Below are positions 1-29,100 of a stretch of 64,000 nt of DNA, one piece after another. A program made the translations under genes and the position numbers. The stretch's first letter is position 1. Each line of letters opens with the position of its first letter. Below the pieces are notes generated by a model. That model was not told the origin of the DNA and did not search any database. It saw only the letters and a list, made by a program, of their open reading frames with translations. This stretch comes from Microglena sp. YARC. Its lineage: Eukaryota; Chlorophyta; Chlorophyceae; Chlamydomonadales; Chlamydomonadaceae. The stretch lies in the NCBI GenBank assembly GCA_022414725.1, contig CM039462.1, positions 181,142,990-181,206,989 of the forward strand. The letters run 5' to 3'.

Positions 1-76
1 AAACTCTGGCCCTGGGGCAATCAATGGCTTGGCAGGACTCAGCAACGCCTCCATTAACTGCTGGCCTATGATTCAG
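1..76 (+). CDS. HACL1: HACL exon (first in window, 5' end cut)
   Basis: Frame starts at base 2. It encodes SGPG, then a glycine/alanine-rich turn and NCWPM, the end of the PYR domain. The donor is CAG|GTCTGC at 77 (phase 0). Residues align with human SGPGLIHALGG and NCWPLL. Confidence 0.85.
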
Positions 77-3000
77 GTCTGCACCATAGTGACATTGTAT
101 CATGCTGTCATGCACTGACCCGTGCATTGCGCTGTTGCTATTTCATGGTGCACAGATATCTGGGTATTATACACCTTCGATGTAATAACGAACAAAACAC
201 AGTGACATTGTATCATGCTGTCATGCACTGACCCATGCGTTTCTCTGTTGCTATTTCATGGTGCACAGATATCTGGGTATTATACACCTTCGATGTAATA
301 GCGAACAAAAAACATAGTGACATTGTATCATGCTGTCATGCACTGACCCATGCGTTTCTCTGTTGCTATTTCATGGTGCACAGATATCTGGGTATTATAC
401 ACCTTCGATGTAATAGCGAACAAAAAACATAGTGACATTGTATCATGCTGTCATGCACTGACCCATGCGTTTCTCTGTTGCTATTTCATGGTGCACAGAT
501 ATCTGGGTATTATACACCTTCGATGTAATAGCGAACAAAAAACATAGTGACATTGTATCATGCTGTCATGCACTGACCCATGCGTTTCTCTGTTGCTATT
601 TCATGGTGCACAGATATCTGGGTATTATACACCTTCGATGTAATAACGAACAAAAAACATAGTGACATTGTATCATGCTGTCATGCACTGACCCGTGCAT
701 TGCGCTGTTGCTATTTCATGGTGCACAGATATCCGGAAGCTGTGCACCATGAAATAGCAAAATATCACTAAATGTTTTGCTACCCCTGGACTGTAAAAAA
801 AAACAAGCACACATGGAGACAATGTATCATGCACTGACCCATGCGTTGCACTGTTGCTATTTCATGGTGCACAGATATCTTGATATTATATACCTTCGAT
901 GTAATAACAAACAAAAAACATAGTGAGAATGCACTGTCCCATGCGTTTCTCTGTTGCTATTTCATGGTGCACAGATATCTGGAAGCTGCGAGCAATCTGA
1001 AGTTGGCAAGGGCGCTTCATGACCCCCCCAGCTAAAACTGCCCCCCCCCCCCCCCCTCTCCTCCCCCCCCGGACACTGCGCTCATGCAAAAACAAACCCA
1101 CCTAAACCTACCCACCCACCCCTTCAACCCCTCACCCCTCTAATTTAGCCTGTCTGGCTACTCCAGAACTGTTAAAAGACAAACAAACACACATAGTGAC
1201 AATGTATCATGCTGTCATGCACTGACCCATGAATTGCGCTGTTGCTATTTCATGGTGCACAGATATCCGGAAGCTGCGAGCAATCTGAAGTTGGCAAGGG
1301 AGCCTTCCAAGAGTGCGATCAAGTGTCTGCCCTGGGCAAATTCTGCAAGTGAGTTATTGGTACATGTATTGGTACCCATGTTTTTCACAAGCCTCTAAAA
1401 TCCATTTAAAAGCTGCAACTTTTGGTTAATCGGTTGGATGTAATAATTGTGGAACTAACTGAATAGCTCTGAATAGATAGTAAAGATAATTGGCAGTAAC
1501 ACCAGTGATCCAGCCATTGTATAAAGAACAATCTTATAAGCAGCCTCATATTCATCTTGTGAGCTACCTTCCACCCAGACATAAAACCAAACAAACATAC
1601 AAAACAAAACAAAACGAGCAAAGAATATCATATAACAAAATACTAACACACACAAACAAAACAAAACAAAACCTGTACCCATGTATTCATCTTGTCAGCT
1701 GCCTTCCACTCAGACAAACAAACAATGGATACAACTAAAAAAAACTGTTCCAATGTATGTATCTGCAAGCTGCCTTCCACCCAGACAAACAAACAATCAA
1801 ACAAAACAAAAAAAAAACTGTACCCATGTATTCATCTTGTCAGCTGCCTTCCACTCAGACAAACAAACAATCGATAAAACTAATACACACAAAAACTAAC
1901 AAAACTGTACCCATGTATGTAACTGACAAAAACAAACTACCAAAACTGTACCCATGTATGTATCTGCAAGCTGCCTTCCACCCAGACAGACAAACAATCA
2001 AACGAACAAACAAACAAACAATCGATAAAACTAGCAAAACAAACCTACCAAAACTGTACCCATGTATGTATCTGCAAGCTGCCTTCCACCCAGACAAACA
2101 AACAAACAAACAAGCAATCGATAAAACTAGCAAAATAAAACATACCAAAACTGTACCCATGTATGTATCTGCATGCTGCCTTCCACCCAGACAAACAAAC
2201 AATCAAACAAACAAACAAACAATCGATAAAACTAGCAAAATAAAACCTACCAAAACTGTACCCATGTATGTATCTGCAAGCTGCCTTCCACCCAGACGAA
2301 CAAACAATCAAACAAACAAACAATCGATAAAACTAGCAAAATAAAACCTACCAAAACTGTACCCATGTATGTATCTGCAAGCTGCCTTCCACCAAGACGA
2401 ACAAACAAACAAACAATCGATAAAACTAGCAAAATAAAACCTACCAAAACTGTACCCATGTATGTATCTGCAAGCTGCCTTCCACCCAGACGAACAAACA
2501 AACAGACAAACAATTGATAAAACTAGCAAAATAAAACCTACCAAAACTGTACCCATGTATGTATCTGCAAGCTGCCTTCCACCCAGACAAACAAACAATC
2601 AAACAAACAAACAAACAATCGATAAAACTAGCAAAATAAAACCTACCAAAACTGTACCCATGTATGTATCTGCAAGCTGCCTTCCACCCAGACGAACAAA
2701 CAATCAAACAAACAAACAAACAAACAATCGATAAAACTAGCAAAATAAAACCTACCAAAACTGTACCCATGTATGTATCTGCAAGCTGCCTTCCACCCAG
2801 ACGAACAAACAATCAAACAAACAAACAATCGATAAATTTAGCAAAACAAACCTACCAAAACTGTACCCGTGTATGTATCTGCAAGCTGCCTTCCACCCAG
2901 ACGAACAAACAAACAAACAATTGATAAAACTAGCAAAATAAAACCTACCAAAACTGTACCCATGTATGTGTCTGCAAGCTGCCTTCCACCAAGACGAACA

Positions 3001-6000
3001 AACAAACAAACAATCGATAAAACTAGCAAAATAAAACCTACCAAAACTGTACCCATGTATGTATCTGCAAGCTGCCTTCCACCAAGACGAACAAACAAAC
3101 AAACAATCGATAAAACTAGCAAAATAAAACCTACCAAAACTGTACCCATGTATGTATCTGCAAGCTGCCTTCCACCCAGACAAACAAACAATCAAACAAA
3201 CAAACAAACAAACAATCGATAAAACTAGCAAAATAAAACCTACCAAAACTGTACCCATGTATGTATCTGCAAGCTGCCTTCCACCCAGACGAACAAACAA
3301 ACAAACAAACAATTGATAAAACTAGCAAAATAAAACCTACCAAAACTGTACCCATGTATGTATCTGCAAGCTGCCTTCCACCCAGACAAACAAACAATCA
3401 AACAAACAAACAAACAATCGATAAAACTAGCAAAATAAAACCTACCAAAACTGTACCCATGTATGTATCTGCAAGCTGCCTTCCACCCAGACGAACAAAC
3501 AATCAAACAAACAAACAATCGATAAACTAGCAAAAAAAACCTACCAAAACTGTACCCATGTATGTATCTGCAAGCTGCCTTCCACCAAGACGAACAAACA
3601 AACAAACAATCGATAAAACTAGCAAAATAAAACCTACCAAAACTGTACCCATGTATGTATCTGCAAGCTGCCTTCCACCCAGACGAACAAACAAACAGAC
3701 AAACAATTGATAAAACTAGCAAAATAAAACCTACCAAAACTGTACCCATGTATGTATCTGCAAGCTGCCTTCCACCCAGACAAACAAACAATCAAACAAA
3801 CAAACAAACAATCGATAAAACTAGCAAAATAAAACCTACCAAAACTGTACCCATGTATGTATCTGCAAGCTGCCTTCCACCCAGACGAACAAACAATCAA
3901 ACAAACAAACAATCGATAAAACTAGCAAAATAAAACCTACCAAAACTGTACCCATGTATGTATCTGCAAGCTGCCTTCCACCAAGACGAACAAACAAACA
4001 AACAATCGATAAAACTAGCAAAATAAAACCTACCAAAACTGTACCCATGTATGTATCTGCAAGCTGCCTTCCACCCAGACAAACAAACAATCAAACAAAC
4101 AAACAATCGATAAAACTAGCAAAAACAAACTACCAAAACTGTACCCATGTATGTATCTGCAAGCTGCCTTCCACCCAGACAAACAAACAATCAAACAAAC
4201 AATCAAACAAACAAAACAAATCGTGTATCCATGTATTCATCTTGTCAGCTGCCTTCCACATAGACGAACAAATGAGAGAGAAAAACATAACACAACACCA
4301 TAAACATACCAGATTATACAATACAACACGTACACAGACAAACAAGACACAACCTGTGCCCAGGTATGCTGGCCAGGCCCACAATGTTGAGGACATCCTA
4401 TCCATGTTATCAGCTGCCTTCTACTCAGACAGACAAACAATAAAAAAAAGGCGAACACAGACCACTTTGTCTACTTAGGTATGCTGGCCAGGCCCACAAT
4501 CCAGAGGACATCCCATCCATCTTGTCAGCTGCCATTCACGCAGACAAACAAACAATAGAACGCTTACAGAGGCAAAGACGACACAACGCAATAAATATAC
4601 CAGATTATGCAATACAACGCTTACACTGACAAACAAAACAAAGCCTTTACCCAGGTATGCTGGCCAGGCCCACAAGGCAGACGACATCCCTTCCACCTTG
4701 TCAGCTGCCTTCCACTCAGACAAACAAAACAAAACCTTTACCCAGGTATGCTGGCCAGGCCCACAAGGCAGACGACATCCCTCCTAGCTTGTCATCTGCC
4801 ATTCACTCAGACAAACAATCGAACAAATCAAACATACACAAAAAACAAATAAGTTTATACAACACAACACTTACACTGACAAACAAAACACAACCTTTAC
4901 CCAGGTATGCTGGCCAGGCCCACAAGGCAGACGACATCCCTCCTAGCTTGTCATCTGCCATTCACTCAGACAAACAATCAAACAAATCAAATATACACAA
5001 AAAACAAATAAGTTTATACAACACAACACTTACACTGACAAACAAAACAAAACCTTTACCCAGGTTTGCTGGCCAGGCCCACAAAGCAGACGACATCCCT
5101 TCCACCTTGTCAGCTGCCTTCCACTCAGACAAACAATCAAACCAACTAAAAAAGAAACAAAAAAATCATACAAAACACACACGTACATGCAAACAAACAA
5201 AAAGAATAACACAAACAAAACAATTCCTGTGCCCAGGTATGCTGGCCAGGCCCACAAGGTAGACGATATTACATCCATCTTGTCATCTGCCATTCACCCA
5301 GACAAACAAACAAACAAATCAAACATACACAAAAAACAAATAAGTTTATACAACACAATACTAACACTGACAAACAAAACGAAACAAAACCTGTACCCAG
5401 GTATGCTGGCCAGGCCCACAAGGCAGACGACATCCCTCCTAGCTTGTCATCTGCCATTCACTCAGACAAACAATCAAACAAATCAAACATGCACAAAAAA
5501 CAAATAAGTTTATACAATACAACACTTACACTGACAAACAAAACAAAGCCTGTACCTAGGTATGCTGGCCAGGCCCGTAAGGTAGGCGACATCCCATCTA
5601 TCTTGTCAGCAGCCTTTCACTCAGACAGACTAAAAAAAGACACACAAAAAGACTAACACAGCAAAAAAAAACATTTTCATCCAGGTATGCTGGCCAGGCC
5701 AACACAGTGAAGGACATCCCATCCATCTTATCAGCTGCCTTTTACTCAGACAAACAAACGATCAAGCAAGCAAAAAAAGAAACAAACAAAACAAGCGGAC
5801 AAAACACACACACACACAAACAAGACTAAGACAGACAAAAAAAAACTGTACCCAGGTATGCTGGCCAGGCCCACTCAGTGAAGGACATCCCATCCATCTT
5901 GTCAGCAGCCTTTCACTCAGCCGCCTCAGGCCGGCCTGGTGCTTCCTACGTCGACATCCCCTCCAACATTTTGATGGAGCCCTGTGATGAGGTGGCGCTG

Positions 6001-8650
6001 TCCAGGAGTGTGGGTCCTAGCTCAGCTCCGAAACCATCCCCTCCAGCCTCTGACATCAGCGCTGCTGCTGCCCTTCTGCGCTCTGCTTCTCGCCCCCTCC
6101 TCGTGGTGGGCAAGGGTGCAGCTATGGCCAGAGCTGAGGGCGGCGTACAGCAGCTGTGTAACAAGTTTGGCATCTCGGTGTTGGGGACAGCCATGGGGCG
6201 CGGCTGCATCCCTGATAGCCATCATCTGTGTGTCAACGCTGCTAGGTCTCAAGCCCTGGCGCAGTCCGACGTCGTCGTGGTTGTGGGGGCACGACTCAAC
6301 TGGTGAGTGCAGGCACACACACACATACACACACACGCACACCCATACATACACACGCACACGTGGCGCACACACTAACAAGTTTGGCATCCCGGTGTTG
6401 GGGACTGCCATGGGACGCGGCTGCATTCCTGACAACCATCATCTGTGTGTCAATGCTGCTAGGTCTGAAGTCCTGGCGCAGTCCGACGTTGTTATTGTTG
6501 TGGGGGCAAGACTCAACTGGGGAGTGCACACATCCACATCCAAACACACACATCCACACACAGATACACACACGACCTGCTACAACACCCCTGACCCCCC
6601 CAACCACCCACCCACGCCAACCACACCCACGTCTCCCCCCTCCCCTCAGGCAACTACACTTTGGCGAGCCGATGCCTGATACAACTTAAAAACCTGCCAC
6701 CACTACCACGACCTGCTACAACACCCCTGCTACAGCACCCCTTCACCCCCACCCCACCCCCAACACGCACACACACCCTCCCCCCAGGCAACTGCACTTT
6801 GGCAAGCCCCCCAACACACACACACACCCTCCCCCAGGCAACTGCCCTTTGGTGAGCCCCCCAACACACACACACCCTCCCCCCAGGCAACTGCACTTTG
6901 GCGAGCCCCCCAAATGGTCTCCCTCAGTCAAGTTCATCTTAGTCGACATTGAGCCTAGCCCCAGGGACTCATCTGTAGCTGCTCTGACACTGGTGGGGGA
7001 TGCCGCTGCTGCCCTGGACCTCTTGGTCAAAGAGATGTCTGCTGCCCCCGGTGTAGACACACAGAGGTGGGTCCCCTTCTCTCCATTGGAAGAGTGAGTG
7101 TTTGTGTGTGCGGGGGCGTGTTCAAACCTAGCCCATGGAACACATATATAGCTGCTCTGACACTGGTGGGGGATGCCGCTGATGCCCTGGACCTCTTGGC
7201 CAAAGAGATGTCTGCTGCCCCCGGTGTAGGTGCACACACAGAGGTGGGTGTCCTGCTCTCCCTTGCATGCGTTAGCGTCAGTGTGTTAGTGAGTGCGGGG
7301 TGTGTGCGGGTCTAGCCCATGGAACACATATATAGCTGCTCTGACACTGGTGGGGGATGCCGCTGCTGCCCTGGACCTCTTGGTCAAAGAGATGTCTGCT
7401 GCCCCCCGTGTAGACACACAGAGGTGGGTCTCCTGCTCTCCCTTGCATGCATGCGTGTGTGTGTTTGTGTGTGCAGGGCGTGTTTGGGCCTAGCCCCAGG
7501 GACTCATCTGTAGCTGCTCCAACACTGGTGGGGGATGCCGCTGCTGCCCTGGACCTCTTGGCCAAGGGGATGTCTGCTGCCCCCGGTGTAGGCACACAGA
7601 GGAGGGTGCCCTGCTCTCCCTTGCATGCATGTGTGAGTGTTGGTGTGTGCGGGGGCGTGTTTGGGCCTAGCCCTAGGAACACATACATAGCTGCTCTGAC
7701 ACTGGTGAAGGATGCCGGTGCTGCCCTGGACCTCTTGGTCCAGGTTTAGGGTTTTAGGGTTTAGGGTTTAGGGTTTTAGCCCTAAATGCCGGTGCTGCCC
7801 TGGACCTCTTGGCCAAGGAGATGTCTGCTGCCCCCAGTGTAGGTGCACACACACACAAAACTTTAAACTTAACTCCCCAAACACACACACACAGGTACTG
7901 CCCTTGGGTGGCCGCCCTCCTCCTCCTCCCCCCCCCTCACACACATACACACACACAAAACTTAACTCCCCAAAACACACACACACACACACACTCACAC
8001 ACACAGGTACCGCCCTTGGGTGACCGCCCTCACCTCCACCCACCCACCCCACACACACAGGTACCGCCCTTGGGTGACCGCCCTCACCTCCACCCACCCA
8101 CCACCCCTCACACACAGGTACCGCCCTTGGGTGACCGCCCTCACCTCCACCCACCCACCCACCCCACACAGACAGGTACCGCCCTTGGGTGACCGCCCTC
8201 ACCTCCACCCACCCACCCACCCCACACACACAGGTACCGCCCTTGGGTGACCGCCCTCACCTCCACCCACCCACCCACCCCACACACACAGGTACCGCCC
8301 TTGGGTGACCGCCCTCACCTCCACCCACCCACCCACCCCACACACACAGGTACCGCCCTTGGGTGACCGCCCTCACCTCCACCCACCCACCCACCCCACA
8401 CAGGCAGGTACCGCCCTTGGGTGACCGCCCTCACCTCCACCCACCCACCCACCCCACGCACACAGGTACCGCCCTTGGGTGACCGCCCTCCCCTCCACCC
8501 ACCCACCCCACACAGACAGGTACCGCCCTTGGGTGACCGCCCTCACCTCCAAGGCCCAGTCCTCCGCCGCTTCCCTGTCCAAGAAGCTGGCCGAACCTAA
8601 CTTCACTAGATCCCCAGGTACCGCCCTTGGATGGCCGCCCTCACCTCCCC

Positions 8651-8681
<31 letters not shown>

Positions 8682-9508
8682 AGAGGTACCGCCCTTGGGT
8701 GACCGCGCTCACCTCCAATGCCCAGTCCTCCGTGGCCTCCCTGTCCAAGAAGCTGGCCGCCCCCCCCAAGGACCCCCTCGACTACTACACCGCCCTGGGC
8801 GTGCTCCGCTCTGCCCTGGAGGCCGAGGCGGCGGCGGGGCCTGCCCCTGTGGTGGTCAGTGAAGGAGCGAACACAATGGATATGGCCCGACTGCTGCTCC
8901 CAGTGCACTCGCCCCGCACGCGGCTGGACGCCGGGACGTGGGGTACCATGGGCGTAGGTCTTGGCTATGCGATTGCATCGGCAGTGGTGGACCCCACCCG
9001 CCTGACGGTGGCGGTGGAGGGTGACTCTGCTTTCGGCTTCAGTGGGATGGAGATAGAGACAATGGTCAGGTAGGTGGGGAGATAGGGACGGGTGTGGGTG
9101 AGGGAGGGGGTGGGGGGAATGGAGATAGAGACTAAGGGCGTAGGTCTCGGCTATGTGATTGGGTCGGCAGTGGTGGAGCCCAGCTGTGTTGAACTCCTTG
9201 TGCTGTTGATTATGATGACACGGTTGCTGGTGACGCCCCAACAACACCCCCACCCCCACCCACCATCAAACTAACAAACACCCCAACAACATCTACCCAC
9301 CCAACAACCCCCACCCCCCCACCCCCAAACACAGGTACAAGCTGCCCATCGTAGCGACCCTAAACGTACCCCCATCCCCACCCCCCCGACACCTCTCACC
9401 CACCCAACAACACCCCAACAACACCCACCCACCCACCCTCACCCAAACGCAGGTACAAGCCGCCCATCGTTGCTATAGTAATGAACAATGGCGGGTACAA
9501 ATGACGTA

Positions 9509-9540
<32 letters not shown>

Positions 9541-12500
9541 ACACACACACACAGGGTGACAGGCGTGAGAAGGACTTGGCCGCTGCTGCTGCTGCTGGGG
9601 CTCAGTCAGCTGGCTTCTCATCAGACCCCCACCCACCCACCCAACACCCCAACAAGAACCCACTGACCCCAAACGCAGGTACAAGCTGCCCACTGTGGTG
9701 ATAGTGATGAACAATGGCGGCATCTACAGGGGTGACAGGCGTGAGAAGGATTTGGCAACTGCTGCTGCTGCTACTGGGGCTCAGTCAGCTGGCTTTTCAT
9801 CAGACCCCCACCCACCCACCCACCCAATACCTGGACACCCAACAAGAACTCACGCACCCCCAAACGCAGATACAAGCTGCCCATTGTGGTGATAGTGATG
9901 AACAATGGCGGCATCTATGGGGGTGACAGGCGTGAGAAGGACTTGGCCGCTGCTGCTGCTACTGGGGCCCAGTCAGCTGGTTTCTCATCAGACCCCACAC
10001 CCACTGAGTTTGCTGATGGAAGCAGGTTAGTTGCCCTGGATGTGTAGCACGGGCTTGTCGTGGGTGTCGTGGGTGTGTGGCACGGGCTTGTCGTGGGTGT
10101 GTGGCACGAGCGTGTCGTGGGTGTGGCACGGGCTTGTCGTTGGTCAATTATAGCCTGCCTCTGACAATGTTATGTAACTTCACACGTTCTATAGTGCCGT
10201 ACTGACACGGAAATTCAACGATCCTAAAATTTGACGTTTGTCTTTGGAAACTGAACCGAGCACCCCTCAAACCCAGGACTGGCGAATCTACAAGATGGTT
10301 TCGCCCGGCATAGCGCACTGTGCGACCTGCGGGTTCAATCACTGCTCGGACATGAGCCCTTGTCATCTTTCTTTTCTGTTAGAACGGTATAATATTTTTT
10401 AGTGGTTAAATAATGTGTAGTGCTGTGTCCAGCCTTTTTTCAAATGTCCAATATCGTTTTTCTCTCAGCAAAACTATAATCGTACAAAATCGTGCACAAT
10501 GATTATTAATGTTTCCATTTCCCCTAAGTACAGACCCAGGAATCGGACCTAAACGATGATTTATGTTCAGTCCAAAAACCTTAGGAACAAGTTCTATGCA
10601 GCGTCGCCTGCGACGTTAAAAAATGGCGGAGAGTGATCGCGAGGGAGCAACAGGTGGCAACGGAAGCGAGTTAGTTACGAGGCCGTTGGCTGACGTGTCG
10701 GGCTTCATCGTGGATGGATGGATGGTCGGACGGACAAATGGGTAACACTGGGGGCTCCCGGCCCCCAGGAGGGGGGGCTCCGCCAAAAAACTTCGTTATT
10801 CGATTTTGATGTGTGATCTCGAGGGCCATTTGTCCTCAGTCGCTATGCCAGTAACTACGCGATAATTAGTTGAGGTGATCAAACCTCCTCCATCAGTGGG
10901 ATTCGAAACCTATGATGCAATTATTGGACAATGCCCGAGTAACGAAAGTCTTAGGAAACAGCTGGTTGTGTCCTTGCAAGAAGCAAGTATAATATTAAGG
11001 TAATGATAACGCCTGGTGGGGCGTGGTATTAAGGGAGCCCCCTCTTACAGCAGTAGGGAACGGGCTACTACTTTACCTGGATAAAGCTACCATGGTGGTT
11101 GACAGCGACCGCGAACACTAAGGCGCACCCGTGGGGATTCGAAACGGGCACCTTAGTCGTTCAAGGAGCTCTGCCATTGAGCCATCTTATATATATGTTC
11201 GCGTTTACATTTTCCTTGTTGTTTACTGCCGAAGATGGCTAGCAGCCAAATTGCTGTCTGAAGCTATGTAACTACTTTACCTGGATAAAGCTACCATGGT
11301 GGTTGACAGCGACCGCGAACACTAAGGCGCACCCGTGGGGATTCGAAACGGGCACCTTAGTCGTTCAAGGAGCTCTGCCATTGAGCCATCGTATATATGT
11401 GTTCGCGTTTACATTTTCCTTGTTGTTTACTGCCGAAGATGGCTAGCAGCCAAATTGCTGTCTGAAGCTATGTAACCAAGTTCAAGTTCATGTGCATGCA
11501 AGAAGCATGCACGTGCGGGCAAGGAGTTGACAGTGAGGAGTAACTTTTTATGTATAACTTGAACTTGGTTACATGGCTCCAGTGAATGGTACATGACGTC
11601 TTTGGCAGCAGCAACAACCATCAAAGCATTGTATGTGTGTATGTATGTTTGTATGTATGTACTAGTACATTGCCCGTGTGGCCGGAGGCCATCCCCCACC
11701 CCACCCACCCAGGTCCTGGGTCCTGTTCTGGCCTGGGTTACATAACGTGCAACGCCCTTGAACGTACACCCTCCCCCCCCCTTACTCACATGCACACAGT
11801 CAAGACATTTCCCCTTGGCAAATTATCAAACGCATGCCCCCATCCTTTCAGACTATAAATATACCCTCCCACCCCCAGCCCCAGGACCTACATGATCCCT
11901 ATTTACCGCTAAATCTTCCTGCCCCCCATCCCCACCCCCTTGACACATGCTCTGTTTATCCCCCTTGCACCCCACCTAAGTCATCTCCACACCACCCAAA
12001 TATACCCCCCTACCCCCAGCATCTCCATACCACCCAAATTTACCCCCGTACCCCCCACACCACCCAGCCATCTCCACCCTCCCTCCACGCTCCTCTCCCT
12101 ATGACTATCCCTACCTCGTACACTTCACTCCAGCTGTGGGCTGAGATCGTGCTGAAAGTGCAGGCTGGATATTGAACCAACGAACAGGTTTCGAACGCTC
12201 AGATACCGATCATACCGAGTACACCGGATCTGCACGATTGCAAGGCTAGGAACTTGCAGCTCGTGCTGTGGCACAGTTGGGAAAACTTCACCTTCAATCC
12301 GGTCAAAACTCTGCAGCAAATCCGCAGCGTCACATTTCTAGGGATAGGCAATATGATATCATATGATATCATATAATATCATACGATGCCGGCGGTCTGA
12401 CTCGGTAACTTTGGCCTGCGGCAACATATCATATGATATTTGTATGATATCATATGATATCATACTCGTCTTTGGTCAGCATCATATGAGTTGCCGGTCC

Positions 12501-13268
12501 TTACATATTTCATGATCGTGGATACAGCGAAAATAGATTGCATATATGGGATGTGCGGTGAAAGCGCAAGAAATGGGCACCTGATGAGAACAATGAGCGC
12601 CCAGAATGGGCGCCTGATAAGAAGACGCTAGCCGATAGCCAGCTAGCGTCGGCATGCGCCAGGTAGCGATGGCTCGTGGGAATCCGTGTATGTCTCCATA
12701 TATATAGATGTGTGTATGTATGTATGTATGTATGTATGCATGCATGTGTGATTTTTTTGTGGTTGGCCCCAGTGCAAGCAAACGGGCTGGGGTACTATTT
12801 ATTTATGTGTGTGTGTGTGCATGCATGTTGAGTAGCCAACAGCCGTTCAGCTACTCTTGCGTGAGCCAGTACCTCATGTGCAGCAAACGACTCTAGCCAG
12901 GTCATACCAACAGGAGCACCTCAGGAATCACTCATATTTGATAGGCTTGCTTGCGCTGCTCACTGTGTCTGTCCTGCCTACTCCAATGTGCATAATTGCT
13001 TTGTAGGTGGCTGCCTTTGGGGGTGCTGCACTTCATGTGTACATCATATTTATTTTTTACATCACTGTTCTGCAGGTACGACATGATGATGGCTGCCTTT
13101 GGGGGTGCTGCATATCATGTCACCACTGCTGCAGAGCTGCAGCAGGTGCTAGCTAGAGCTTTCGCCGCTCGTCAGCCTGCCCTGGTGGATATTGCCCTGG
13201 ACCCCATGGCTGGAGTGGAGAGTGGCAACGTCCATGCCTTCAATGCACCAACCCCGTCCAAGTTGTAG
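1..13268 (+). CDS. HACL1: 2-hydroxyacyl-CoA lyase / oxalyl-CoA decarboxylase family, 5'-partial, seven exons
   Basis: This is a ThDP- and Mg-dependent lyase that cleaves 2-hydroxyacyl-CoAs to formyl-CoA and an aldehyde in peroxisomal alpha-oxidation; the sister activity is oxalyl-CoA decarboxylation. Exons by splice sites and reading frame: <1-76, 1263-1348, 5856-6302, 6887-7066, 8686-9069, 9870-10025, 13076-13268. All junctions are GT-AG and keep frame, giving 506 residues plus stop. I aligned it by eye to the human HACL1 family: SGPG and NCWP at the start, [33 protein letters not shown], the ThDP motif GDS-X24-NN, and AAFGG near the end. The C-terminus is SKL, a canonical PTS1 signal, so the site is inferred to be the peroxisome. 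About 80 N-terminal residues, including the catalytic Glu of the PYR domain, lie left of the window. The introns consist largely of tandem copies of exon edges. HACL versus oxalyl-CoA decarboxylase cannot be separated by eye. Confidence 0.92.
77..1262 (+). repeat. Intron 1: 115-bp tandem array made from the exon-2 acceptor edge
   Basis: Six near-identical 113-115 bp units begin at 88, 201, 316, 431, 546 and 661; degenerate ones follow near 815, 927 and 1195. Every unit contains a polypyrimidine-like stretch, CATGGTGCACAG and the first 8 bases of exon 2 (ATATCTGG or ATATCCGG). The copy at 971 carries about 40 bases of exon 2 before diverging. The short ORFs through the array are shadows. Confidence 0.9.
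1263..1348 (+). CDS. HACL1: HACL exon 2 in window
   Basis: Acceptor GCACAG|ATATCC, donor TGCAA|GTGAGT. It reads [19 protein letters not shown] and onward to KFC, with the last Lys codon split AA|G. GAFQE matches the human family. Phase 0 in, phase 2 out, so it joins the next exon in frame. Confidence 0.88.
1349..5855 (+). repeat. Intron 2: two-class tandem array made from the exon-3 acceptor edge
   Basis: From about 1560 to 4225 some 25 units of roughly 85-105 bp read TGTACCCATGTATGTATCTGC, then AAGCTGCCTTCCACCCAGAC, then an (A)AACAAAC tail. From about 4225 to 5855 about 11 longer units retain CCCAGGTATGCTGGCCAGGC plus the next 55-60 bases of exon 3, ending at CACTCAG. The short class is the long class with an internal deletion and AG changed to AT at the splice site. 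No gene lies here apart from exon-derived fragments. Confidence 0.9.
5856..6302 (+). CDS. HACL1: HACL exon 3 in window (central domain)
   Basis: Acceptor TACCCAG|GTATGC, donor CAACTG|GTGAGT. It begins with the third base of a Lys codon and ends with two bases of Trp. It encodes [39 protein letters not shown], a [15 protein letters not shown] segment and VVVVGARLN. This is the Rossmann-like central (TH3) domain that binds the ADP part of CoA in the family. Confidence 0.92.
6377..6520 (+). repeat. Intron 3: 144-bp copy of the 3' half of exon 3
   Basis: It duplicates 6160-6303 at roughly 88% identity and stays open in the coding frame. Most differences are third-position. The donor GTGAGT has become GGAGTG. 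It reads CIPDNHH where the exon reads CIPDSHH. A CA-rich stretch (6311-6360) separates it from the exon. Confidence 0.88.
6640..6886 (+). repeat. Intron 3: three decoy copies of the exon-4 acceptor edge
   Basis: CAG|GCAACTxCxCTTTGGxxAGCC occurs at about 6649, 6787 and 6837, each after a CCCTCCCCC pyrimidine tract, before the true exon at 6887. Each decoy keeps about 22-30 exon bases and then returns to CA-rich intron sequence. Confidence 0.87.
6887..7066 (+). CDS. HACL1: HACL exon 4 in window
   Basis: Acceptor CCCCAG|GCAACT, donor CAGAG|GTGGGT. It encodes [34 protein letters not shown] and ends VDTQ plus two bases of Arg. The family equivalent is HFGLPP, VKFIQVDI, VTLLGN. Confidence 0.9.
7115..7845 (+). 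repeat. Intron 4, left part: 4-5 copies of the exon-4 donor side
   Basis: Copies start near 7120, 7312, 7488, 7668 and 7786. Each begins at CCTAGCCC, keeps GCTGCTCTGACACTGGTG and continues through the exon end; most include the donor GAGGTGGGT. Spacing is 170-195 bp. The 7668 copy is interrupted by telomeric repeats. Confidence 0.88.
7743..7779 (+). repeat. Interstitial telomeric repeat (TTTAGGG/TTTTAGGG)
   Basis: Five telomere-type units, mixing 7-mers and 8-mers, lie inside an exon-4 copy. The same ~30-base exon segment (GCCGGTGCTGCCCTGGACCT and on) occurs on both sides. Both unit types are known in chlorophycean algae. Confidence 0.85.
7890..8685 (+). repeat. Intron 4, right part: 12 decoy copies of the exon-5 acceptor edge
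   Basis: The CAG|GTACCGCCCTTGGGTGACCG edge recurs about every 57 bp from 8006 to 8519, with outliers near 7895 and 8617, separated by CCACCCACCCACCCC and CACACA. The 8519 copy extends about 80 bases into exon 5 (to KKLAEPN) before diverging. Confidence 0.92.
8686..9069 (+). CDS. HACL1: HACL exon 5 in window (start of the ThDP/PP domain)
   Basis: Acceptor CACAGAG|GTACCG, donor GTCAG|GTAGGT. It encodes [54 protein letters not shown] and [16 protein letters not shown]. The GDS begins the GDG-X(24-27)-NN cofactor motif completed in the next exon. Confidence 0.93.
9110..9869 (+). repeat. Intron 5: partial exon-5 copy and four decoys of exon 6
   Basis: 9117-9185 copies an internal part of exon 5 (GGAATGGAGATAGAGACTAAG, then GGCGTAGGTCTCGGCTATG). 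Copies of the exon-6 edge CAG|GTACAAG lie at about 9332 (35 exon bases), 9452 (45 bases) and 9678 (about 115 bases). A copy at 9555 lacks the edge but keeps GGTGACAGGCGTGAG onward. Copy length increases toward the real exon. Confidence 0.88.
9870..10025 (+). CDS. HACL1: HACL exon 6 in window
   Basis: Acceptor CGCAG|ATACAAG, donor GAAGCAG|GTTAGT. It encodes [18 protein letters not shown], an Ala-rich linker and [10 protein letters not shown]. The NN completes the ThDP motif exactly 24 residues after GDS. The decoys carry AG|GT, but the exon used here has AG|AT, still giving Arg across the junction. The 9678 copy is less likely to be the exon because it lacks the segment after SSDP. Confidence 0.87.
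10270..10350 (+). repeat. tRNA-derived SINE fragment
   Basis: It has a B-box-like GCGGGTTCAATCAC preceded by a degenerate tRNA body with CGCCCGGCATAGCGC. Downstream and upstream A/T-rich sequence shows no acceptor pairing, so it is not a functional tRNA. The adjoining 10190-10260 segment recurs on the opposite strand near 34305-34365. Confidence 0.5.
10997..11190 (-). repeat. tRNA-derived SINE, full-length copy
   Basis: On the minus strand it starts GATGGCTCAATGGCAGAGC (A box), then GTTTCGAATCCCCACGGGTG (B box), then a tRNA-unrelated body ending CCAGGCGTTATCATTACC. The same structure occurs on the plus strand at 55681-55876. Confidence 0.75.
11067..11476. repeat. 204-bp tandem duplication spanning a SINE head and a second repeat family
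   Basis: 11067-11270 and 11271-11476 are nearly identical, both starting ACTACTTTACCTGG and ending GAAGCTATGTAAC. Each unit includes the SINE tRNA head and the adjoining element with TTTACTGCCGAAGATGGCTA. Confidence 0.88.
12170..12260 (-). repeat. tRNA-like repeat (degenerate)
   Basis: The minus strand reads CGGTGTACTCGGTATGATCG (A-box-like), then GCGTTCGAAACCTG (B-box-like). The anticodon and acceptor arms do not pair, so I treat it as a SINE remnant. Confidence 0.4.
12341..12470. repeat. Palindromic ATATGATATC element
   Basis: Two blocks of alternating GATATCATATGATATCATAT, about 45 bp each, flank a 45-bp GC-richer core (12388-12425). The blocks are self-complementary and complementary to each other, so the segment can fold as a long hairpin. 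Confidence 0.7.
13076..13268 (+). CDS. HACL1: HACL terminal exon with PTS1 (SKL)
   Basis: Acceptor CTGCAG|GTACGA. It encodes [15 protein letters not shown], then an alpha-helical [11 protein letters not shown] and [20 protein letters not shown], ending TPSKL and TAG. A GPGG/AFGG-type turn and an ALxDP ending are typical of the family C-terminus. Confidence 0.92.
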
Positions 13269-14560
13269 ATAGATCATTAACAACCCTGGACCCCATGGCC
13301 GGATTGGAGTCGATACGAATCTTCCATTGTTTAGTTGTTCACTGTCTCACTTGTTGTAGACTCTTGCAACGAACTGCGTAGCTTCGCCCAGATATTGCGA
13401 AGCATACCGTTATGTTACGACAGCCTGGAACCGTTGACTGTCGTATGTATCTGATGTGTCGCTGACAGTGTCGTAGGACCAACTGTCGCGTTCTGTGTTC
13501 CGCAGCGTGAAACCTAGAACCCTAAGTTCTAGAACCTTAGGCGGCACTACAAACACCGCCGCTACCTCTATAACATACATTTCCACCTCAATTATATTCG
13601 TCTCAATGAATACTTGCTAAGATCCGTATCGAGATAAATAGAGGTCTTCAGAAATTGTCCGTTGTAACTGTCCAACTGTTTACTTCTTTCTTGGCCTCCA
13701 TGCTGGTTCCTCGTACCTTTGCGTACTGTTAGTCATCCTTCAAGTCGTTCAGGTGTAGCATCGTGTTTCGATTTTGATGAATTGCTTTGAACTTGAATTT
13801 GAATTGTTTCGAATTTGATACTTGCCTCAATATTTTACTTCGACATGTCTTCGCACAGTGTAACCGTATTCACATAAAAACTGATTATGTCCGGTCGGAG
13901 TTATGTGTGTGGTATCCATCAAAACGAACCAAGCAGTTACAGTTTCCGAACAAGCAGATCTGGTCGCCCATGAGATGGGGTCAGAAGAAAAACTGTGTTA
14001 GTCCGATGTTTGTTTAATAATGATCGAATATAGTAATAGACTAATAGTGTATTACCACGACGAATTAGGTGGTGGTTCAAGCCAAGACATGGTTGCAGAA
14101 AGCTGCTAAACTTGAACTAGAACTTGGTTACATATCTTCAGCCAGCAAGTTGGCTGCTCGCTGTCTTTGCCAGTAAATATTTTTACAGGAAAAGCTGCTG
14201 TACGAATGGCTTATATAATGTGTTCCGGCTCACGCTATGGTGTCCTTAACTTCACGTCCTGTGAGTAACTGTATTACACGGATGTAACAATTTCAATTTC
14301 AATGTCCCGGCTCCGGTATTCCTGGTGAGTAATGTGCCAGTTCAGGTACGAATAGCAATTGCACTCCAGGTTTCATCTTGGAACTTCTGATACAATGGGT
14401 GATAACTTGACCTGGTTACACGTGGACTCGGTGCTGGACTCGGGATGTCAAAATGTACTTGATGTGTGAGTGCAGTCCAGGGGTACTCACTCTGGCCACA
14501 GTGACAGAACAGAATTCAACCAGCCCAGGCAAATAATTTGATGAGACGCGTGTGTGGTTG
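13269..14560. other. Intergenic, HACL 3' end to H3
   Basis: No gene is supported. 14107-14170 carries a dispersed repeat with CTTGAACTAGAACTTGGTTACAT followed by CAGCCAGCAAGTTGGCTGCT; relatives lie at 11218-11275 (inverted), 11555-11600, 35265-35335 and weakly at 61100-61160. Confidence 0.6.
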
Positions 14561-14584: not shown

Positions 14585-14620
14585 GTTTTTATTTTCATGA
14601 CTGAAGCCAGGCAGATTGAA

Positions 14621-15079
<459 letters not shown>

Positions 15080-15144
15080 TCAATCTAAAGGTTCGACAAT
15101 CCAGATTGGGTTTGAGGATAAGTTCCGGCGCAAAAAGAGAGGTG

Positions 15145-15195
15145 CGGATCAGCAGGATCGGCATCGGATCAGCAGGATTGACATCGGATCAGCAG
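15145..15195. promoter_or_regulatory. H3-H4 intergenic promoter: three CGGATCAGCAG elements at 20-bp steps
   Basis: CGGATCAGCAG begins at 15145, 15165 and 15185, exactly 20 bp apart. Its core resembles the plant histone octamer CGCGGATC. The same element is in the other two histone intergenic regions of the window. H4 has a TATAAA at 15249-15254. Confidence 0.75.
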
Positions 15196-15213: not shown

Positions 15214-15639
<426 letters not shown>

Positions 15640-22800: not shown

Positions 22801-23100
22801 GCCCCGCCCCACCCCACCAATCAACCCCCACCCAACCCAAACCCAACCCTGCCTCCCTACCCAACCCACATCACCACCACTAATGATGTATTCCCGCGGT
22901 TTTGAACAGGCAGTGGGCGTTTGGGTTGGGATGGGGTGCGTTGGGTAGGGTTGGATCGGTGGGGGGGTTTATCTGGTTGTCTATTTGCCCGCCTGCCTTC
23001 CTGCATGCCTTCTTGTCTGCCTGTCTATCTTCTATCTGTCTATCAGACTGTCTTTCTTTCTCTCATTCCTACTAATGGAGTTTCCCCTGGTTTGGAACAG

Positions 23101-26100
23101 CCAGTGGCCAGTGAACATATCAGTGCGCCACATTCAAGCTGACCCATGCAAACACAAGGACCTGGCTAAAGTCGGTATCCAGCAGTTCAAGTGTGCTATT
23201 GTATTGTGCGATGAAAGGTGCGTGGACCCAGACATGAATGTATGAATATGTGTATGTATGTTGTTACAGCCCAGGGTAGGCCAAATAGGCACCAACCGCG
23301 TTTTTGTTTTTGATGTTTGTTTGTTTTACCGGGGGAAACATGTTTGCGACAGGTGGTGGGACCGTGACATGAATGTATGAATGTGGAGCCTGGCATGAAT
23401 ATATGAATGTATGACTATGAGCCCTGAACTAAATATATGATGTATGAATATAGGATGTGAGGGTGGGTGGGCCGTGGCATGAATATATGAATGTTATGAA
23501 TATGGGCCGTGAACTAAAGTATATGGATGTATGAGTATAGGATGTGAGGGTGGGTGGATCGTGCCATGAATATATGGATGTGGACCCTGAAATAAATATA
23601 TTGGACGTATGAAATCTAGGATGTGCAGGTGTACCCAAGACTTTGAACGACACCAACGACATCAACTAATGTTTTGTTTGTTTTACTGGCTGAGCTGAAC
23701 ATGTGATATGCAGGTGGGTAGACCCAGACATGAACGACACCAACGGCATCGACGCCTTGTTTTTCCTTGCGGAGCTTAAGCTCAAGAAATATAACAAATT
23801 GTGTTTAGGTTTATTAACAGACTTTATTATTGTAGTTTTAACTGCGATTGAATATCTGATGTGCAGGTGTGCAGGTGTGGTGTGTGAATTAATAGATACT
23901 AGCAGCCGTGTTTGTGAAGAAGCTTGATAGCCGGAAAGGGATATTAGTTGTATCAGAGTGATATTCGTAGTGTCAGCCGTAGAGAGGAGAGAGAGAGAGA
24001 GAGAGAGAGGAGAGAGGAGAGAGAGAGAGAGAGAGAGAGACGCAGGATGCGGGGACTAATGCACCACTGTGTTGCAAATGAGTGAAAACCAAAGGGCAAA
24101 AACAAGTACCCCAGCCTAGTTCAGTATTGCTAATCGGATACCAAACTAGCTTCCCGAATTCACATATTAATGGATTTAACAGATTCAGACAGTTGACTCA
24201 GATTCCTTTACAGTTGCTTTCATTTATTTCCAAATACATCTAAATTTACCCTTGAGGGTTTAGGAAATAAGCACATGCAGGCTTCCATCATTGTCAGTTC
24301 TTATATTTGCAAAGATTGGGGCCTGCTTGCTGGACATTGAGTCACTTTCCCCGAGAGGCTCCAGCGATCTTTCAGATGGGGCCCCCATTGGTACAAAGTG
24401 CTAGCAGGACATATTTAAGGTGCACGCTGGGCCTTGAAAGGTTTTAGCTCTGTGTGCGATATTTCCCTTAATTAGGGGTATATCACACCACACACTGGCT
24501 CGCCTTACTGTCTTATCAGCTGTTACCATTTAAATAAAGTCAACTGCACTATCTAGCTTGTAAGTCCAGACTGTCAGGTCGTCTTTGTGCTACTACCATG
24601 TGCAAGAGTCACTGCAATCTCACACACACACAGCCCCTCAGGATAATTAAAATCAAGTCCCAATTAAAAAGGAAAAAGGGAGTGTAGAAGGGGACTGGGG
24701 AAAGGTGTAGGAGTAAGAACCCATTTACAAGACAGCAGCTTGGCTAAGTGATGGGGTATCAAGAGGGAAGAAGAAAAGGAGAGGCTAGGCTCAGAGGCTG
24801 GAAGCAAAGTTCAACTTGACTGAGAGGTCTGGGATCAGATATGCCTTAATGGCATCTGATTTCTATCCTTGAGTTCTGATATACTCTAGATCTGCCCCAT
24901 TAGCCCAGGCTGCTACTACACCTCTCCGTCTGAGGCTGTGCATGGCAAACCTAGCTGGATCTATGTCCAGCTTGGGGTGTGAGAGGGAAAAAGCAGTGAG
25001 AAAAGACTTCAGTCTGTAGGACAAAGCCTGACCTGAAAGGAGGAAGGACTGCAACTGACAAAAGTAGAGCAATAAGCTCACTCCTCCTAAGGAGGCCGGC
25101 CAAAGAAAACCCCCCCATCACTAGCCCATCCAATCCCCTACCTTCAGCCCCCCCCCCCCCAAACCCCCGCCGCAAAAGGGGGGGGTGGGGGAGGGTCCCC
25201 TTCCAATATCATTTTTTGCCGGGGCCTAACGTCTGCCCCTACAAAAATGTCCTCCACAAATAAAACAAGTGGGGATTATCGCGCAACAACATATAAAACC
25301 CACCCACCTCCACCAAGAATCGCTACTACGTAAAACCTGAATAACCGGGGGGCGGGGGCGTCCCCCGCCCCCTCCCCCAATTGAGTTTTCATCTTTTTTT
25401 TTTTTACCCCCCCCCACCGCCCAGTTCCCAATAATACATTTCAAAAAAATTTGGTTGGGGGGGGGGGGAACAGACCACCGCCCGCAGCAGGGTTTCCAGC
25501 TTCCTCATGGTCTCCAGACACGTCAAAGATGAGGGACTTACACACCCATATTTGCCAGAGGAAAACTCCTTAGGCCCCTGGAAACACCCTAAAAGGTCTT
25601 GGAGAGCTGTCCCACAACACTGGAATCCAGAGTGTGAAGGGTCCAGTCCCTTGGACCTGTGCCATTCAGCTAGTGCTGACAGGGTTGTTTGAATGGTGGC
25701 AGGTTTGTAATGACCTGCTGCCCAAACATGGACCAGCTTTAACTAGCATCAAAGGCACTTGTTCGCTTGGGCAGGGGGGAGTGCATCTGCTCAGTAAAGC
25801 ACAGTAAAACCTCAGCATGCACTTGGTGTATCGCTTAAGAGCACTTGCATAAGTGTCTTGTTCCCCCCCCTTCCTTTGAGCTTACAGCCAAGGTAGAGCC
25901 CTCCAGCATCACTAATCCCTGCCCATGTTGGCCTTGAAGCTAGTGATGTGCAGAGACACTCTTACAGTGGTGCACGCTGAGCACTTGAATGTACCACAGG
26001 ACTTGGCATTCCTACGGCCCAATGCTGATGCACTGGGGGTGGCTGTGCTGGCCGCAGCTGGTGCAACCTAAACATCCTTCCCTTGGTACCTCTTGGAAGA

Positions 26101-29100
26101 TGGTACATCCTATGGGGGGAGGAAGAGAGGGAAGGGGTAAGCTACTGGCAGACTGATCACAAGCTAAAGTGTGTCAGTGGGTGAGGCCACCCAAGCATAC
26201 AGGGCGGAGATCCAAAAAAAAAGAAAGTTTTTTGTTTTTTCCTTTTTTTCCCTGTTTTTTAATTTTGCAGAGAATGGGATGTTATCATCCCTGATGCCTG
26301 TTATCCTGGAACCCCCCTTTTAAACAGCTGAGACAGCTTGGACCTTATCCATGTAGCACAAGATGACGTTACTGCCAGTTCATGTGCCCAGTGCTGCAAG
26401 CAAATCATGCAAGCTTCGAGTTCCAAGACAAACCTATTGTGCACATGTACCCCTACCGACTCATGCCACTCCAGCTCCAGAGCCTTGTCCAGAACTCCAG
26501 GTCACTTGTGTTGCCCTGTTTGAATTATTTAAGGTGTAGGCTGGACCTTATAAGGTTTTAGCTCTGTGTGTGATATTTCCCTTAATTAGGGGTTATATCA
26601 CCACCCACTGGCTGGCCGTACTGATTCATATGCAGCGTATGTTACCATTTAAATATCCATGGGATTTAAGGCCTGTGCCTTGTAAGTGGTATGGTAGGGT
26701 GGTGACAGGGTGTAGGGCATCAAACAAGAGTTGGATTGTGCCAGGTATCCCCAAGGTGTGACCTTTGGGGGAGAGCTCTCATCCATTCCACCTATTTTAC
26801 CCTGCCACAGGGTTGTTTCAGGGGTGGTGAGTGAGCAAGGTAAAACTTGCTCATTACAACCATTTACCCCAGTGAAGGAAGGGTCTACTAGAAACCTAGG
26901 ACAAGAGACACCTTAAATTCATCTGCCCAGATATTGCCATCTCTCTTTATTCAGCTTGGTTCCAGTTGAGTTGAACCACTTTTCCCTGTCTTCCAAGTCA
27001 TGGGGTTGAACATCTCATCCATCAGTCTCCCACAATTGTTGATTTGAATGCAGCTATGAACGTGAGTTGGTACTGTAGGAGGACAAATTCTAGCAAGAGC
27101 TGAACGACGCAAAATCTCAAGGCGAACAGGGCTGCTGTGCGGAGGCACTGAGCCAGAAAGGGGGGGGAAAGCATGGAAGGAGAGCGTGAAGGTCGACTAC
27201 GAGTCGCGGAGCAGAGGGGGAGAGGGAAGGAACTCATACTCTTCACCATTCTTCTCGAATCATGGCTGGGAGGGCATTCTAGCGCATAGGCTTGAGGCTT
27301 GGAGGTCTTGGGGCAGCAGGAGCTTTCCATGCGGGGGTTGCCTTCTTGGACGGATGGTTCTTGGGCTTGTTGTCGCACAGCTGATTCGGCCTTTTTTTCC
27401 GTGGGGTTTTTTTCAGCGCCATGCCGCGGACTACGAACATGAAAAGCTGGTGAAGAAAGAGAGCTTTAGCAGCTTAGAGCCTAAAATTTTTTCCGTTCTC
27501 GTGGTTCTCGATTGCTGTGCTTTCGCTTAAATACCGTGCAGATTCAGGGTACTGGTTGAATTCACCGGCGTGGCGCACTCCTGTTCTGCCCGGGGTTTAC
27601 GGGTATTTGAAATTTGAAGGCAGCTTTCGGAATTCTGCGGCAAGCGTCTGAATACTCTATTTCTCCCACTACTGTGCGGGAAATACGGTATTTAACAGGG
27701 TGGACTCTGACATCAGCAACACCAACGGCATATTTCTTTTTTACTGACTGATGAGAATATGTTATGTGCATGTGGGTTGACCCAGACATGAACAGGACCA
27801 ACGGCATCAATTTTTGATCTTTGATTTTTTTGACCGACGAAGGTAAATATCAAATATGTGAAATACTGATATGCAGGTGTGTGGACCCTGACATGAACAG
27901 CACCAACAGGGTTAAACATCGACGCCCTTTTTATTGTACTGACTGAGGTGAATGTGTGATGTGCAGGTGGGTGGACCCAGACATCAACGACACCAATGGC
28001 ATCGATTTGTTTTTGTACTGACTGCTGGGTCTTTCTTTTCGGCTTTTGGTAGCAGCTTCTAGGCAGCTCCCTGAGCTAGCCTCTCGGCTTAGCTTCTAGA
28101 TCTCAACATTAAAATTGAAATAGATTTCCGCCAGCTTGAAGATGCACTACGTTGCTATAGGGTTGGCTGATTAGCAACGCCAAGAAGCTGCCTAGAAGCT
28201 GCTGCTGGTACCTGAAAATAAAAGCTATGACTGACTGAAGTGAATATGCGATGTGCTGGGTGGTGGACCCTGACACCAACGACACTTGCGGCATCGATTT
28301 TTGATTTATTTTTTTGACCGACTAAGGTAAAATATCTTGATGTGCAGGTGGGTGGACCCCGACATGAACGACACCAACGGCTTCGACGCCCTTCAGCAGC
28401 AAGACATGCTCCGCCTGGACTCAATGGTCATGATGATACAGCTCAACGTTTGCAAGTTAAACGAGGACAGACGATTGCCTGCTTTTCATTTTTATTACTG
28501 ACAGGTGAATATCTGATGTGCAGGTGGGTCGACCCCGACATGAACGACACCAACGGCATTGATGCCCTTCAGCAGCAAGACATGCTCCGCCTGGACTCAA
28601 TGGTCATGATGATACAGCTCAACGTTCGCAAGTTAAATGAGGACAGACGGTTGGCCGGCTATCAACATCATTTGCCAGAAATGGCAATGGAGGGGCAGAC
28701 TCGATTTGAATGTCCGGCGGCGTCGCCTCCCACTGGGTATCTCGATGAACCTCACGTCGTATGACGCAAAGAACCTGGCAAAGGTAAGTCCATTGTGGTG
28801 TGCTGGCTTTGATCATGTGGGTGTAAGGTGCCAGAAGGTTGCAATGGAGGGGCAGACTCGATTTGAATGTCGGCGTCCCCTCCCATTGGGTGTCTCAAAG
28901 AACCTTACGTCATATGACGCTAAGAACCTGGCACAGGTAAGTCCATAGTGGTGTGCTGGCTTTTGTCATGTGGGTGTGATGGTTTCCAGAGGGTTGCTAT
29001 GGAGGGGCCTCTCGATTTGAATGTCGGCGTCGCCTCCCCACTGGGTATGAATAATGGACCTTCTGTCATATGGCACAAATAATGTAGCACAGGATGGCCA

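Follow-up and report, generated by a model that had tools for sequence, protein, structure and literature searches.

Exon-edge copies in the introns of an HACL gene and their likeness to mirage minisatellites

Minisatellites built from exon edges have a named precedent in the mirages of amphioxus (lancelets), described for Adh3, the globin genes BflGb6 and BflGb9, troponin C and PGBD5 (PMC3087553, PMC3902484). As characterized in these reports, mirages are tandem duplicates of exon-intron boundaries, at 5′ as well as 3′ exon boundaries, with units of 10-160 bp, and AG/GT is present in many, not all, of the copies while regular splicing is reported to be undisturbed. They vary in length between haplotypes or in somatic cells and are reported from cephalochordates (PMC3087553, PMC3902484). 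An earlier note on the DNA analyzed here, which described introns holding copies of their own exon edges, knew of no named element class that covers them; the mirages are such a class.

A duplication that unites an intron's 3′ side with the 5′ side of the following exon, as seen here, is also described in PMC4974935, where one duplication event gave a new intron and an extra exon via a cryptic donor; in HACL, by contrast, the additional edges are present in many copies and appear to remain within the old intron. The tandem AGGT duplication model (Rogers; Hellsten et al. on ATP2A1) likewise invokes local tandem duplication with splice signals, but in the form given there it doubles exonic sequence only (PMC3443670, PMC4974935), whereas most HACL units hold intron sequence too. 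Finally, the core of Drosophila ratchet points, as reported, is a juxtaposed AG and GT (PMC8605326).

Exon-edge copies in the HACL gene

The window, by which we mean the whole 64-kb stretch of DNA that was analyzed, opens within a gene whose seven exons, when joined by script, give a single open frame of 506 codons plus stop. The HACL protein has three TPP-enzyme domains, and its residues 2-501 align with oxalyl-CoA decarboxylase / 2-hydroxyacyl-CoA lyase chains with small gaps (four residues near the exon 4/5 joint, and two gaps within exon 6). The exons, placed by the joined open frame, are:

1..76, plus strand, exon 1, 3′ part only (the gene starts upstream of the window)
1263..1348, plus strand, exon 2
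5856..6302, plus strand, exon 3
6887..7066, plus strand, exon 4
8686..9069, plus strand, exon 5
9870..10025, plus strand, exon 6
13076..13268, plus strand, exon 7 including the stop codon

Copies were sought with blastn, using the seven HACL exons against the exon-masked first 14 kb (E<=0.01). This returned 41 exon-derived matches, 40 of them intronic and one in the 3′ flank (13284-13309), all in direct orientation (0/41 on the minus strand), whereas 50 dinucleotide shuffles of the HACL introns gave a mean of 1.08 and a maximum of 2 matches (the flank match sits in a part that was not shuffled). The copies reported earlier are thus real, and chance is ruled out as their origin. A looser search yielded two minus-strand matches (HACL intron 3 and gene 3). 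Counts per edge were taken from a local-alignment scan with self rows omitted, and the features are as follows (alignment scan unless stated):

77..1262, plus strand, intron 1: eight exon 2 acceptor-edge copies, each unit about 115 nt long and including 5-41 exon bases
1349..5855, plus strand, intron 2: 37 exon 3 acceptor-edge copies, 34 covering the junction and three rows without it
6376..6574, plus strand, one exon 3 donor-edge copy: the last 144 exon bases (6376-6519) and about 55 intron bases, GT changed to GG (blastn and scan)
6638..6864, plus strand, three exon 4 acceptor-edge copies with 21-27 exon bases, AG kept
7127..7853, plus strand, five exon 4 donor-edge copies, unit about 178 nt, three spanning the junction (GT, GT, GA)
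7854..7894, plus strand, 41 nt between the innermost donor-edge and acceptor-edge copies, with CTTAAC at 7868
7875..8648, plus strand, 12 exon 5 acceptor-edge copies: a 58-nt array plus one copy with 74 exon bases
9116..9182, plus strand, exon 5 donor side, two fragments (9116-9132 and 9136-9182) without the junction
9320..9815, plus strand, four exon 6 acceptor-edge copies containing, from the most distant to the nearest, 18, 42, 84 and about 135 exon bases, three of the four covering the junction
13008..13038, plus strand, one partial copy of the exon 7 start (about exon bases 15-45), without splice site (blastn and scan)
13284..13309, plus strand, exon 7 bases 120-145 copied past the stop codon, without splice site (blastn)

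The exon 5 acceptor count leaves out two CA-rich rows. The copy numbers given in the earlier note (8, 35, 3, 4-5, 12, 4 and 1) are right within about two of those in the scan (8, 37, 3, 5, 12, 4 and 1). Missing from its list were the exon 3 donor copy, the exon 5 donor fragments and the exon 7 copy past the stop codon. The scan bears out that the repeats combine exon sequence with splice sites and flanking intron: copies of every array cross the splice junction into the intron, except at exon 7 and on the exon 5 donor side, and junction-spanning copies occur at 5/6 HACL acceptors and 2/6 HACL donors.

Array periods are 115, about 93-159, 50, 178, 58 and 191 nt, and the copies (78-97% identity) differ from one another by both private and shared substitutions. 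The array of intron 2 includes ten proximal copies with 65 exon bases each and AG kept (junctions 4363-5684), and a distal sub-array in which CAT replaces CAG at 24/24 junctions. In introns 1, 3 and 4, respectively, 79, 130 and 41 nt separate the innermost donor-side sequence from the first acceptor copy, and the last of these stretches (7854..7894) is a candidate remnant of a short original intron 4. Altogether 726 of the 1522 exonic bases have a copy, with a coverage of 0.65, 0.72, 0.62, 0.46 and 0.12 at 0-19, 20-39, 40-79, 80-119 and at least 120 nt from the nearest splice edge, the profile that edge-spanning duplications predict.

We also searched the introns for copies of the six spliced exon-exon junctions and found none, the 4/5 junction being ambiguous over 10 CA-rich nt. 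For four of the junctions the best match starts 1-3 nt ahead of the joint; for 6/7 it starts past the joint, and for the CA-rich 4/5 it starts 10 nt ahead. Since no exon-exon junction is copied, processed RNA is an unlikely source, and we reject an origin of the copies from spliced RNA, with the same reservation for 4/5.

Edge copies in other genes, edge preference and decay

The earlier note had named a lack of such copies in other genes as a refutation, and the outcome favors its reading: both further intron-bearing genes that we recognized (by eye, within the window) show edge copies (alignment scan):

22879..22916, plus strand, gene 2, an acceptor-edge copy of exon A (exon A is 23101-23217)
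23216..28467, plus strand, gene 2, 11 acceptor-edge copies of exon B (real edge 28523/28524)
28844..29810, plus strand, gene 2, seven donor-edge copies of exon B, unit about 153 nt, six covering the junction and five of these six retaining GT
63630..63799, plus strand, gene 3, two acceptor-edge copies of the second exon (real edge 63932/63933)

Over HACL and genes 2 and 3, junction-spanning copies were found at 9/10 acceptor edges versus 3/9 donor edges (p=0.02), a fragile difference, as p is about 0.05 by hand without the uncertain exon C of gene 2; a looser criterion had given 10/10 acceptors (p=0.003) and was replaced by the 9/10 count. The proposed tendency for the longest copies to lie nearest the real exon holds over ten arrays taken together (p=0.0003), although three of the ten run in the opposite direction, and it weakens to p=0.033 without the exon 3 array, to p=0.063 without the exon 3 and exon 6 arrays and to p=0.14 without the exon 3 and gene 2 arrays.

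The copies show decay. Several carry frameshifts or stops, the long exon 4 donor copies are gapped in 3/3 cases (4, 1 and 5 nt), and mismatch rates of 0.081, 0.078 and 0.121 at the three codon positions show that all positions are hit. Over 65 nt, however, the frame is retained in all ten proximal exon 3 copies, with no stop and no net length change; neutral decay does not require this, which counts against an origin by neutral duplication, although the copies are not independent. Among junction-bearing HACL copies, AG is kept in 36/60 acceptor copies and GT in 2/4 donor copies, and 35 of the 36 AG-bearing acceptor copies would truncate the protein if used alone. A role as functional exons is rejected, as inspection by eye shows no donor belonging to the acceptor copies, most of which would truncate the protein. 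Conservation of AG does not exceed that of the adjacent exon bases in the arrays of exons 3 and 5, and selection on AG in the copies is rejected for these arrays.

The likeness to mirages extends over several features. In HACL and in genes 2 and 3 the tandem duplicates span the exon-intron boundary, unit lengths fall roughly within 10-160 bp (the largest, 178 and 191 nt, slightly exceed that range), the donor side is affected too (HACL exons 3 and 4, gene 2 exon B), and, as the HACL counts above show, AG and GT are present in part of the copies. Unlike the amphioxus cases, this locus probably belongs to another lineage, with copies at 9/10 of the acceptor edges examined and up to 37 at one edge; the available portions of the amphioxus mirage reports state no number of affected edges per genome (PMC3087553, PMC3902484). 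What is new here is the extent of edge duplication and the host, which is probably of the green lineage.

Origin of the copies

The HACL copies are very probably exon-intron boundaries duplicated in tandem, in the manner of minisatellites and of the mirage kind. A local DNA duplication with a unit of about 50-180 nt would run from intron into exon or the reverse, leaving one intact exon edge in place and adding a redundant one within the intron. As long as the spliceosome uses the edge that bounds the intact exon, the reading frame would survive. Since the extra copies leave the real exon whole beside them, boundary duplications would be tolerated, and those lying wholly within exons would mostly be purged by selection. 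Repeated events, array amplification and mutational decay would then lengthen the intron from both ends, so that a short original intron ends up near the middle of the grown one, and transcripts would presumably ignore the copies.

We simulated neutral growth by random tandem duplication in short introns, rejecting events that damaged exons. From starting introns of 60-120 nt the simulated mean exon-derived fraction was 0.40-0.66, compared with 0.01-0.56 measured in eight introns; the introns of genes 2 and 3 and HACL introns 1, 2 and 6 (0.01-0.17) hold less than the simulation yields from short introns, which counts against the model. A 400-nt start gave means of 0.08-0.20, lower than HACL introns 3-5. 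The pattern had been called more systematic than chance satellite growth, and the simulation speaks against this, as the neutral model from 60-120 nt equals or exceeds the observed fractions; under the model, the claim would hold only if ancestral introns were long. An edge-specific copying machinery is likewise unneeded according to the simulation, if introns started at 60-120 nt. Equal use of donor and acceptor edges is predicted by the duplication model, and the acceptor excess reported above counts against this.

An unlikely alternative is that the introns were born by tandem genomic duplication, in which an exonic AGGT was doubled, the stretch between became the intron and the copies record the founding event. 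Gene 2 fits this, because its intron opens at the exon A donor with a 23-nt near copy of the exon B start (23216-23238, 0.87 identical), as the Rogers model predicts (PMC3443670), and several HACL exons (3, 5 and 7) begin with GT after AG. Exons 2 and 4, however, have no initial GT, and at the HACL donors of introns 1-6 no row places a copy of the downstream exon start at the intron start. Moreover, in HACL introns 1 and 3-5 the array has ordinary intron, not the upstream exon end, on its far side, and the HACL donor-side copies carry their own donor flank.

We regard it as distinctly improbable that most introns of this lineage have grown inside-out by repeatedly doubling their own edges, with tolerance greatest at acceptors, either via ratchet points with juxtaposed AG and GT or via exon definition that always picks the acceptor nearest the exon's donor. 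If so, the history of this growth could be read from the introns, and the numerous identical acceptors that go unused would offer a natural test of true-site selection.

More doubtful still is that the acceptor copies are functional as such ratchet points, where splicing to a wrong acceptor would restore a donor, so that recursive splicing takes the intron out in steps. The juxtaposition that forms the core of Drosophila ratchet points (PMC8605326) is present in 25 of the 36 AG-bearing copies and is intact in 12/12 exon 5 acceptor copies; acceptor edges are favored over donor edges, and nearly all AG-bearing copies would truncate the protein if not spliced further. Against this, the other 11 (exons 2 and 4) lack GT, so that some arrays are without it, the largest sub-array has lost AG at all 24 of its junctions, and AG is kept no better than its neighbors in the arrays of exons 3 and 5. 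Copy number does not differ between GT-starting and other edges (p=0.33, n=6 and 4), and a link between the two is rejected.

On the reading of the copies as boundary duplications, HACL is a natural experiment on splice-site choice, with 36 AG-keeping acceptor copies in one gene that are presumed unused and nearly copy the true exon start. The local sequence does not tell which copy is spliced; the choice must depend on position, on exon definition or on splicing in steps. Were the extent genome-wide, edge duplication would be a simple route to longer introns that needs no transposon and no special machinery, beyond the animals in which mirages were named.

The rest of the window

Elsewhere in the window, the arrays at 20103-22810 and 30833-31150 seem rich in errors, with 15-17% indels, and a long N run lies near 18231-19230, as might suit arrays made by collapsed or mis-joined long reads, but the HACL copies differ by private and shared substitutions and the exons between the arrays keep an intact frame, which leaves an assembly artefact hardly credible. 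Tandem arrays also occur outside genes, in keeping with the duplication reading: those with a period of at least 20 make up 11-43% of intergenic blocks. Neither the Rfam scan nor the tRNA scan gave a match in the window. The histones look plant-like and indicate that the host is probably of the green or plant lineage. The H2A fragment matches plant-named chains best, and the H2B fragment one fused chain followed by plant-named chains (whose names we take to be those of Arabidopsis), while H3 is marginally best against animal-type chains.

Exon-edge copies in three genes

The DNA of the window is eukaryotic, and the HACL gene (oxalyl-CoA decarboxylase/2-hydroxyacyl-CoA lyase type) at its start was modelled in seven exons, alongside two further intron-bearing genes that were picked out by eye.

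Gene models in the window (HACL features from the joined open frame, genes 2 and 3 by eye)
before base 1 to stop at 13268, + strand, HACL gene
1-76, + strand, HACL exon 1
1263-1348, + strand, HACL exon 2
5856-6302, + strand, HACL exon 3
6887-7066, + strand, HACL exon 4
8686-9069, + strand, HACL exon 5
9870-10025, + strand, HACL exon 6
13076-13268, + strand, HACL exon 7
about 22.9-32 kb, gene 2
from 61975, gene 3

The predicted HACL exon borders are well supported, since the seven exons give one open frame once joined, all six introns start with GT and end with AG, and the protein contains three TPP-enzyme domains and has an oxalyl-CoA decarboxylase as its top PDB match, with residues 2-501 covered. 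The gaps in this alignment are small, one of them lying near the exon 4/5 joint.

The earlier note had described decaying copies of exon edges inside the HACL introns, and these are real: the HACL exons gave 41 matches in the exon-masked first 14 kb, none of them inverted, versus a mean of 1.08 over 50 shuffles of the introns (1 of the 41 sits in the 3' flank, a part left unshuffled). A more permissive search across all introns of the three genes returned two inverted matches. At the acceptor edges of exons 2, 3, 4, 5 and 6 we counted 8, 37, 3, 12 and 4 copies, respectively, plus one partial copy for exon 7, while the donor edges of exons 3 and 4 have 1 and 5 copies and that of exon 5 has two fragments; the per-edge scan found none at the exon 1, exon 2 and exon 6 donors. 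Copies are also present in both other genes. In gene 2, one exon has its acceptor edge copied 11 times and its donor edge seven times, and the acceptor edge of the preceding exon is copied once; gene 3 has two copies of an acceptor edge, and its donor scan gave one inverted match. Gene 2 shows a weak potassium-channel RCK match (below the Pfam cut-off) and a frame break within its exon B, and its exon C is uncertain because two further copies fall downstream of the edge used. At the HACL 3' end, exon 7 codons are copied 16 bases past the stop codon (13284-13309), a duplication there too, with no splice site involved.

Nature and decay of the copies

The HACL copies continue across the splice junction into intron sequence and no intronic copy of a spliced HACL exon-exon junction was found (the 4/5 junction is ambiguous over 10 CA-rich nt); the copies are therefore DNA duplicates and not RNA-derived. 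Copying of exonic bases occurs mainly near splice edges: a copy exists for 157 of the 240 bases lying closer than 20 nt to an edge, versus 49 of 424 beyond 120 nt. Among junction-bearing copies (those that include the splice junction), AG is kept in 36 of 60 HACL acceptor copies, the other 24 being a single distal exon 3 sub-array with an identical CAT, and GT is kept in 2 of 4 HACL and 5 of 6 gene 2 donor copies. Splicing at one of these 36 AG copies alone would run into a stop codon in 35 cases and would add 33 residues in the other. How the real acceptor is chosen could be explained by exon definition, a candidate that fits all cases, in which the acceptor selected is whichever lies closest to the donor of that exon. 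Recursive splicing through the copies is possible, as 25 of the 36 AG-bearing copies carry the motif AG|GT, but beyond this motif the data lend it nothing.

Mismatch rates between copies and exons at codon positions 1, 2 and 3 were 0.081, 0.078 and 0.121 (19 long copies, which are related, so no probability is attached), as expected from free decay of the copies plus exon change mainly at silent sites. All ten proximal copies (4364-5749) of the exon 3 start (5856-5920) are open in frame over 65 nt, and their changes are mostly conservative.

Satellite growth and known counterparts

The copies had been thought to go beyond chance satellite growth, a view that the simulation does not bear out. 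Tandem duplications of 40-200 nt were placed anywhere within or across intron ends and those harming exons discarded (20 settings, 400 runs each), giving mean exon-derived fractions of 0.40-0.66 from a 60-120 nt start, 0.24-0.34 from 200 nt and 0.08-0.20 from 400 nt, versus measured HACL values of 0.01-0.56 (0.05, 0.17, 0.38, 0.56, 0.43 and 0.01 for introns 1-6); the gene 2 and gene 3 values are 0.07 and 0.04. Set against each other, these fractions imply that an edge-directed mechanism would be unnecessary, provided that the introns were once short. The distances from the innermost donor side to the first acceptor copy in HACL introns 1, 3 and 4 (79, 130 and 41 nt) suggest that they were. In intron 4 these 41 central nt are flanked by copies of the end of exon 4 and of the start of exon 5, and contain CTTAAC, which we take to be a plausible branch-point motif.

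Some observations do not fit this picture. Copies that span the junction were found for 9 of 10 acceptors but for 3 of 9 donors (p = 0.02; leaving out gene 2 exon C, about 0.05 as worked out by hand), an excess poorly matched by a model that handles both edges equally, and the ten in-frame proximal exon 3 copies are likewise a misfit. As for the claim that copies nearest the exon are longest, the length gradient is real in some arrays and absent in others.

The closest match among known systems is the mirage minisatellites of amphioxus, which, in the excerpts of PMC3087553 and PMC3902484, are tandem repeats across exon-intron boundaries on either side, with units of 10-160 bp, many containing AG/GT, with splicing reportedly undisturbed and length unstable. 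All mirage features that can be checked in one genomic sequence are found in the copies here, so a named class does exist where none had been recognized. An excerpt of PMC4974935 describes a single duplication of like kind in potato RdRp, which gave rise to a new intron. No report of mirages outside amphioxus was found in the open-licence literature, surveyed mostly by listings. The copies are a true, unusually extensive example of an already known phenomenon, with an ordinary mutational explanation.

Histone genes and other repeats

The H3 and H2B genes in the window each read as one open frame. An H2A fragment matched plant-type-named H2A chains best (85.5 to 79.7 bits for the first five, next 78.4), and for H2B plant-type-named chains led narrowly once a single fused chain is set aside; we take these to be Arabidopsis names. 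For H3, animal-type chains came top by a marginal score that gives no discrimination. Intronless histone gene pairs were seen by eye at 14620-15640, 42720-43575 and 48810-49710, the H3 frame of the second looking shortened. The H2A gene at 49451-49710 is normal to AVLEYL and then has a long internal loss and loses its frame, so that it has the look of a degraded copy.

Positions 7743-7776 hold a TTTAGGG-like run, which adds a weak hint to that of the histones. The host probably belongs to the green lineage and is unlikely to be a cephalochordate. HACL intron 6 holds two tandem 204-nt copies (11067-11476) with a stretch that looks tRNA-like by eye, in which ARAGORN called no tRNA; another stretch like it occurs near 55.7 kb. 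C-rich and G-rich arrays at 19285-22810 and 30746-31733 have many indels between copies and adjoin a long N run near 18231-19230; sequence quality at these arrays may be low. Two near-identical, directly oriented stretches of ~300 bases at 56481-56790 and 60490-60790, separated by about 4 kb, resemble by eye retroelement long terminal repeats, and an intergenic 36-nt unit is repeated about 19 times at 54891-55581.
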